Shown piece after piece: positions 4,790 through 11,021 of a DNA stretch of 37,941 nt. Positions within the stretch are counted from its first letter, which is position 1. Each line of letters begins with the position of its first letter. The notes below the pieces were generated by a model that did no database searches, was not told the origin of the DNA, and saw nothing but the letters and a program-made list of their open reading frames with translations. The stretch spans positions 1 to 37,941 of the forward strand of contig QHWQ01000015.1 of assembly GCA_003222635.1 (NCBI GenBank), in the 5' to 3' direction. A program made the position numbers and the translations under genes. This DNA comes from Acidobacteriota bacterium (GTDB taxonomy: Bacteria; Acidobacteriota; Vicinamibacteria; Vicinamibacterales; UBA2999).

Positions 4790-5074
4790 ATGAGCAGGTC
4801 CATGAAGAAGGGCCCGTTCGTCGACACGCCGCTTCTCGAGAAGCTGGAAGCGATGAACCGGGCCAACGAGAAGAAGGTCATCAAGACGTGGTCGCGCCGT
4901 TCGACCGTGATCCCCGAGATGGTGGGTCACACGATGGCGGTACACAACGGGAGGAAGTTCATCCCGGTCTACGTCACGGAAAACATGGTGGGCCACAAGC
5001 TCGGCGAGTTCGCGCCGACTCGGCATTTCCGCGGCCACACGGCACGCGGCGAGAAGGCCACGCGGGTCCGTTGA
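4790..5074 (+). CDS. rpsS: 30S ribosomal protein S19
   Basis: S19 is a 30S head protein that contacts S13 and the 50S subunit. The 94-residue product begins [20 protein letters not shown] and contains the signature [24 protein letters not shown] (partly quoted), followed by [14 protein letters not shown]. Length is as expected. It starts on the base after the rplB stop. The following 30-base gap holds a plausible ribosome-binding site (AGGAAACGGTGAG) for rplV. Confidence 0.98.
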
Positions 5075-5104
5075 CAACGTTGCAGATAGGAAACGGTGAG
5101 AACG

Positions 5105-5439
5105 ATGGCTGATATCGAGATCCGAGCCGTGGCCAAGAACGTGCGCATGACGCCGCGATTGCAAAGGTGCTGCGCTCGGCGGTGGCCAACGTGCAGCAGG
5201 ACGAGGCGTTCAGCGGTGACATCGATCGCCTCTACGTCTCGGCCGCGTACGCGAACCAGGGGCCGTCGATGAAGCGCGTCCGTCCAGCCCCGATGGGGCG
5301 CGCGTACCGCGTCGTCAAGCGCACCGCGCACCTGACGGTGCAGGTGTCGGAGCGGGCGCTGAAGATCCCGCGCGTCGCTACGGACACTGATGCTGCCGCG
5401 GCGAAGAAGCCGCGCGCCAAGAAGAAGGAACAGGAGTAA
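5105..5439 (+). pseudogene. rplV: 50S ribosomal protein L22 gene with internal frame-shifting deletion
   Basis: L22 lines the exit tunnel and is normally about 110 residues. From ATG 5105 the frame gives MADIEIRAVAKNVRMTPR, the normal L22 N-terminus, then loses meaning at about 5156 and would stop near 5271. The rest of L22 continues in another frame from about 5155: AIAKVLRSAVANVQQ, RLYVSAAYANQGPSMKR and RVVKRTAHLTVQV, then a lysine-rich tail ending at 5439. Compared with L22 from memory, some 28-29 codons (the KARLVVDLIRG to KKAA part) are missing, and the frame difference implies a deletion of 3n+1 bases, perhaps 85. The ORF track shows only the second piece (5167-5439). L22 is normally required for growth, so an assembly or cloning error is the likeliest cause; a real defect cannot be excluded. 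Confidence 0.88.
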
Positions 5440-7047: not shown

Positions 7048-7252
7048 ATGATTCAGATGCGATCGATTCTCGACGTCGCCGACAACTCCGGCGCGCGCAA
7101 GATTTCGATCATCAACCCGATCGGCGGGTCGACCGGCCGCTACGCGCGGCTCGGCGACATCGTCACGGCGTCGGTGAAGGAAGCGACGCCCGCGCGAGCT
7201 GCGCGAGCGGCGATTCATGAAGATCATTTCGCTGGCACCGGAGGTCTTATAG
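7048..7252 (+). pseudogene. rplN: 50S ribosomal protein L14 gene with internal frame-shifting deletion
   Basis: L14 is a highly conserved protein at the subunit interface, normally about 122 residues. From ATG 7048 the frame gives [18 protein letters not shown], then [19 protein letters not shown], a normal L14 N-terminal third. At about 7189-7195 it switches: in the next frame the sequence reads [19 protein letters not shown] and stops at 7252, which is the exact L14 C-terminus. About 56 codons of the core are absent, and the frame change implies a deletion of 3n+2 bases (perhaps 167). The track's 71-residue ORF (to 7263) simply reads on out of frame. Together with rplV this is the second broken universal ribosomal gene in the operon. 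Confidence 0.9.
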
Positions 7253-7328
7253 GCGGCGCGTAAAGCGCCGCCCTACACCGCCGATTGACGGTCAATGGAC
7301 AGTGTAGGGCGCCCCTTTACGGGGCGCC
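7252..7328 (+). repeat. Double-hairpin GTAAA-loop repeat, copy A (rplN-rplX gap)
   Basis: Two GC hairpins face each other across an inverted core. The left hairpin is GGCGGCGC, loop GTAAA, GCGCCGCC (7252-7272). The right is GGCGCCCC, loop TTTAC, GGGGCGCC (7308-7328). Between them lie CCTACAC and GTGTAGG as inverted partners, plus a small ATTGAC/GTCAAT palindrome (7284-7296). A shorter copy of the same design lies at 10952-11006. The element fills nearly the whole gap between the end of rplN and the rplX ribosome-binding site. It is probably an interspersed repetitive element; attenuation or RNA-stabilising effects are possible but not shown. Confidence 0.85.
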
Positions 7329-7339
7329 AGGTGAAAACG

Positions 7340-10513: not shown

Positions 10514-10963
10514 ATGGATCAGAGCACTCTCAAACCGGCTCGCGGATCGAAGCACTCGAAGAAGCGCGTCGGCCGCGGGCATGGCACCGGCCAGGGCACG
10601 CAGGCGGGACGCGGCCACAAGGGCGCGCAGTCGCGCTCGGGCTACAAGTTCAAGCGCGGCTTCGAAGGCGGCCAGATGCCGCTGCACCGCCGCATCCCGA
10701 AGCGCGGATTCCACAACCCGTTCCGCATCGAATACGTCGTGGTGAACCTCGACACGATTGCGGAGCGGTTCGACGCGAACACGGTCGTGACGCCGGAGCT
10801 GCTGCGCGAGCGCGGCGTCGTGCGGAGCGCCGGAAAGATCAAGGTGCTGGCGCGCGGCGACGTGTCGAAGAAGCTGACCGTCCGCGCGCACAAGTTCAGC
10901 GGCAAGGCGGCCGAGAAGCTCGCCGCCGCTGGTGGAGCGGCAGAGGTACTCGGCGGGGCGTAA
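10514..10963 (+). CDS. rplO: 50S ribosomal protein L15 (stop codon inside a repeat)
   Basis: L15 is a late-assembly 50S protein with a long basic N-terminal arm. The 149-residue product shows RGSKHSKKRVGRGHGTGQG, SGYKFKRGFEGGQMPLHRR and PKRGFHNPF, then the globular domain ending in LTVRAHKFSGKAAEKLAAAGG. The last three residues (GGA) and the TAA stop are encoded by the left hairpin of repeat copy B (10952-11006), so the natural end of the gene was probably rewritten when the element arrived. This alters only the extreme C-terminus. Confidence 0.97.
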   Translation: MDQSTLKPARGSKHSKKRVGRGHGTGQGTQAGRGHKGAQSRSGYKFKRGFEGGQMPLHRRIPKRGFHNPFRIEYVVVNLDTIAERFDANTVVTPELLRERGVVRSAGKIKVLARGDVSKKLTVRAHKFSGKAAEKLAAAGGAAEVLGGA

Positions 10964-11006
10964 AGCCCCGCCCTACACCGTGTAGGGCGCCGCTTTACGC
11001 GGTGCC
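10952..11006 (+). repeat. Double-hairpin GTAAA-loop repeat, copy B (rplO-secY gap)
   Basis: Same design as copy A at 7252-7328, but compact. The left hairpin is GGCGGGGC, loop GTAAA, GCCCCGCC (10952-10972). The central palindrome is CCCTACAC, one base, GTGTAGGG (10971-10987). The right hairpin is GGCGCCGC, loop TTTAC, GCGGTGCC (10986-11006), with one mismatch. The stem bases differ between copies yet remain paired, which is covariation pointing to a maintained or self-templated structure. The element contains the rplO stop and ends 15 bases before the secY start. Confidence 0.87.
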
Positions 11007-11021
11007 AAATGGGTAATAGCG

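Follow-up and report, generated by a model that had tools for sequence, protein, structure and literature searches.

Short losses in rplN and rplV of an Acidobacteriota draft genome are best explained as an assembly artefact

The window, a 37,941-nucleotide stretch that constitutes the whole of contig C167 in a 428-contig, 5.63-Mb draft genome, carries lesions in two ribosomal protein genes, rplN (L14) and rplV (L22). Both are very probably artefacts of metagenome assembly, produced when short stretches went missing as contigs were joined, rather than traits of the organism. This explanation is favoured by the occurrence of the same short loss in unrelated genes across the draft.

State of the rplN gene

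The rplN gene starts at 7048 and its 5′ part (7048–7191, plus strand) retains codons 1–48 of L14, as far as KEATP, with all 48 residues identical (100%) to those of the same-genus genome G002, after which the frame is lost. The 3′ part (7193–7252, plus strand) resumes in a different frame and consists of the last 19 codons (7193–7249), whose 19 residues are also identical to G002, and the stop codon (7250–7252). Alignment of eleven sequences, ten of them from relatives, placed the junction at 7190–7193 (no strand assigned), with approximately 2 nt (CG) common to both sides, and showed that exactly 164 nt of the L14 core, or 54 codons plus 2 nt (3n+2), are absent. The span around the gene measures 385 nt in all ten relatives versus 221 nt in the window, and the remnant comprises codons 1–48 and 104–122 of the 122-residue protein, residues 49–103 of the core being gone. 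The alignment bears out a reading made earlier from the sequence only, which had matched the first ~48 and last ~19 residues to L14 and proposed a 3n+2 frame change; its figure of about 56 lost codons was nearly right. Judged from G002, the lost 164 nt have a G+C content of 69% versus 65% for the gene. When the entire draft was searched with the PF00238 (L14) profile, a single match was obtained, to positions 1–53 of 122. Repeat collapse was rejected at this locus, as any repeat linking the two sides is a few bases long at most.

The remnants differ from G002 by 7 nt in the first 144 nt and by 5 nt in the last 57 nt, and all 12 of these differences are synonymous, indicating that any break in the gene must be very recent and agreeing with the sequence-only reading that this is not random decay. 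Judged from the sequence, the break would be either very new or absent from the organism. In neighbouring genomes, a comparison that had been suggested as a check, L14 was matched in 53 of 59 relatives, once in each, and was full length (all 122 positions) in 52 of the 53, the remaining match starting at position 31, where its contig begins. Given these full-length matches, the loss in rplN is far beyond chance. A separate case was seen in Nitrospira sp. RSF11 (L094), where the L14 match covers only residues 1–57 though the contig runs on, possibly through a frameshift or similar fault of the record.

The other proteins of the S10, spc and alpha operons that were tested are colinear with those of relatives, with gaps of at most a few residues and the usual variation in length at the ends. 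Among named relatives in the public species set, the nearest is a groundwater Acidobacteria draft, to whose S3 the protein of the window is 97% identical, and the names of the nearest relatives suggest the order Vicinamibacterales. The intergenic spaces after rplN (7252–7330) and after rplO (10952–11007) each hold a copy of a palindromic repeat (GGCGGSGCGTAAAGCSCCGCCCTACACCG ... TAGGGCGCCCCTTTACGGGGCGCC), and a related element also follows rplN in G002 (L032).

The rplV lesion and the adjoining stretch

The second lesion, in rplV at approximately 5105–5439, is real but more complex than a plain deletion. By alignment, the native 3′ part of the gene occupies 5155–5439 on the plus strand and about 31 codons (about 94 nt) directly upstream of it are missing; PF00237 (L22) gave a single match in the draft, at profile positions 41–103. 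Comparison with near relatives further marked out an odd stretch at 5040–5155 (plus strand), which takes in the end of rpsS, the spacer and the start of rplV. The gene starts with MADIEIRAVAKNVRMTPR in the window and with TSAQKAG/KLV in the 20 members of the order that were read (SSAQKAGLV in one), and the S19 protein of the window is without the Ala/Gly-rich, G+C-rich tail of its nearest relatives. Where two deletions had been proposed, both lesions are real, but that in rplV is not a plain deletion, and the sequence upstream of it (5040–5155) is also unlike the family.

A donor for the stretch 5024–5153 was sought in 396 genomes of the phylum, but no clear source emerged, the only matches being short and at chance level. 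A 39-nt match to the odd stretch in contig C346 was rejected as a chance match inside a polyketide-synthase-like gene, and beyond it no second copy was found in the draft. The stretch 5040–5155 would fit a chimeric contig end lying beside the G+C-rich tail, which is hard to assemble. A model of contig joins needs this putative chimeric end as an extra step, which counts against that model.

Frame breaks and assembly quality across the draft

An iteratively trained codon-frame scan, which replaced earlier scans that were too noisy, was used to find jumps of the coding-signal frame inside genes, counted where no start codon accompanied the jump or where the dead tail was long. It covered 468 kb of the draft, taken from 40 other contigs or parts of contigs, and 891 kb of three control genomes, namely G013 (207 kb), G002 (284 kb) and the single-contig G037 (400 kb). 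The scan returned 14 frame breaks in 468 kb of the draft versus 7 in the 891 kb of relatives (2, 0 and 5, respectively; p = 0.003, pooled), the candidates being confirmed against orthologues in part only and the controls also carrying some breaks. At a stricter setting there were 8 in the draft versus 2, 0 and 2 in the controls, and a third setting with longer windows gave a weaker contrast of 11 versus 2, 4 and 4. Sensitivity to simulated deletions was about 25–50% and broadly similar among the four genomes. When the five G037 breaks were read by eye, two or more of them resembled simple frameshifts in which no residues are missing. This single-contig genome also holds a polyphosphate-kinase-like gene with a frame change (L207, position 14016, minus strand).

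The sizes of four lesions were taken from solved structures, the DNA overlap of the sampled contigs with relatives being too small for direct sizing of many. SecA is without 36 residues and changes frame (L178, contig C27, position 4710, minus strand), NuoL is without about 46 residues (L186, contig C35, position 18085, plus strand), a 1-Cys peroxiredoxin is missing 45 (L144, contig C16, position 5440, minus strand) and a PLP-dependent decarboxylase about 42 (L145, contig C17, position 13754, minus strand). The contig with the decarboxylase also carries a ModB-like (molybdate-type) permease gene that has lost an internal piece in like manner (L145, position 1364, plus strand), and further scan candidates include a xanthine-dehydrogenase-like protein, a TolB-like protein and two TonB-type outer-membrane proteins. 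The 36–46 residues lost from the four sized genes amount to about 108–138 nt, and all six measured losses, including 164 nt in rplN and about 94 nt in rplV, lie between 90 and 165 nt. After correction for sensitivity and for in-frame losses, we estimate a background of several lesions per 100 kb, against which two lesions in a 38-kb window are about as expected.

Other signs point to a difficult assembly. No rpoB was found in the draft (G000) with the main RpoB domain, PF00562, while the same search was positive in 14 of 14 control genomes. Runs of 2, 7 and 41 Ns occur inside other contigs (longer N runs were left out of the count), and these short runs point to scaffolding. In the sister draft G002, rplP of the same operon is interrupted by 100 Ns that have an identical 121-nt copy on either side (contig C143; L032, 15048–15389). 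This is a scaffolding error, and it corresponds to the second error type of Chen et al. 2020, in which Ns are inserted although the flanks overlap (PMC7111523). The same authors recognised local assembly errors by missing read support and described incorrect protein-coding genes in public databases that stem from such errors left uncorrected (PMC7111523). In the draft studied here, figures of 88% completeness and 2.4% contamination give no hint that frame breaks can be detected at intervals of about 33 kb, making claims of gene loss or split genes from it unsafe.

Origin and meaning of the lesions

Under the assembly explanation, two pieces would have been joined with neither the missing bases nor Ns between them, at a cost of about 90–165 nt; one such join would lie in rplN at 7190–7193 and another in rplV near 5155. 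The same process would have given many ordinary genes elsewhere in the draft the same lesion, and the living organism would keep an intact L14. We infer that contig joining, instead of the DNA itself, was the site of loss. In favour of an artefact are the clean loss in rplN, the excess of frame breaks over the three relatives, the undecayed remnants, the absence of rpoB and the small N gaps. Loss at joining accounts for all of these observations, which a living cell with broken L14, L22, SecA and NuoL does not. Similar faults were found in unrelated genes (SecA, NuoL, peroxiredoxin, PLP decarboxylase) at a rate above that of relatives, and the gene is intact in close relatives. The shared cause proposed earlier is best seen as an assembly fault, but its tie to ribosomal genes is lost, with secA, nuoL, the peroxiredoxin and the decarboxylase hit on other contigs.

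It is unlikely in the extreme that the idea of loss in a cloning host, to which L14 and L22 would have been harmful, applies here. The contig is close in size to a fosmid insert, but it is one of 428 in the draft and the other contigs sampled span <1 kb to 66 kb; the lesions, which also affect metabolic genes, are not limited to toxic ones. A real oddity, in which split or shortened L14 and L22 are made or the gaps are bypassed during expression, has nothing in its favour beyond the sequence itself and is scarcely credible, given that L14 core residues 49–103 are lost with a change of frame in a protein that is otherwise complete in relatives (the one exception being cut by a contig edge), that essential genes are broken while their remnants show synonymous change only, and that genes for unrelated products share the lesion.

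We also regard as quite improbable that the deletions are real, with intact L14 and L22 encoded in sequence that was left unassembled and the copies here being fresh pseudogenes. The lesions are clean and recent, and a second copy could be missing from a draft that is 88% complete; for the same reason, the finding of one L14 and one L22 match is not absolute. However, relatives that carry L14 have a single match each, the 12 synonymous differences show no relaxed selection on the remnant, and the like state of secA, nuoL and other unrelated genes would require that very many genes were duplicated and broken in the same way. About as improbable is a contig that merges diverged strains into one consensus, or one whose chimeric joins already existed in the DNA, where some sequenced molecules (for example amplified or template-switched ones) would truly carry the junctions. 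The short sequence shared at the rplN junction and the family-unlike stretch at 5040–5155 suggest chimeric joining, but the draft holds no second copy of that stretch apart from the 39-nt chance match. That the lineage truly has many recent, genome-wide short deletions in conserved genes, its cells dying or sustained by undetected intact copies, is very improbable indeed.

With loss at contig joins as the preferred explanation, the lesions in rplN and rplV leave ribosome biology unchanged, and unusual findings elsewhere in the draft can be checked cheaply by a search for similar 90–165-nt losses in unrelated genes. Ordinary pseudogene decay likewise interrupts conserved genes and shifts their frame, but here the remnants are undecayed and essential housekeeping genes are affected. 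Compared to the errors that Chen et al. 2020 report for metagenome-assembled genomes (PMC7111523), the lesions are mostly short losses without Ns and are known from sequence instead of read support, but they share with them genes broken at joins, chimeric stretches and, in the sister draft, N gaps with duplicated flanks.
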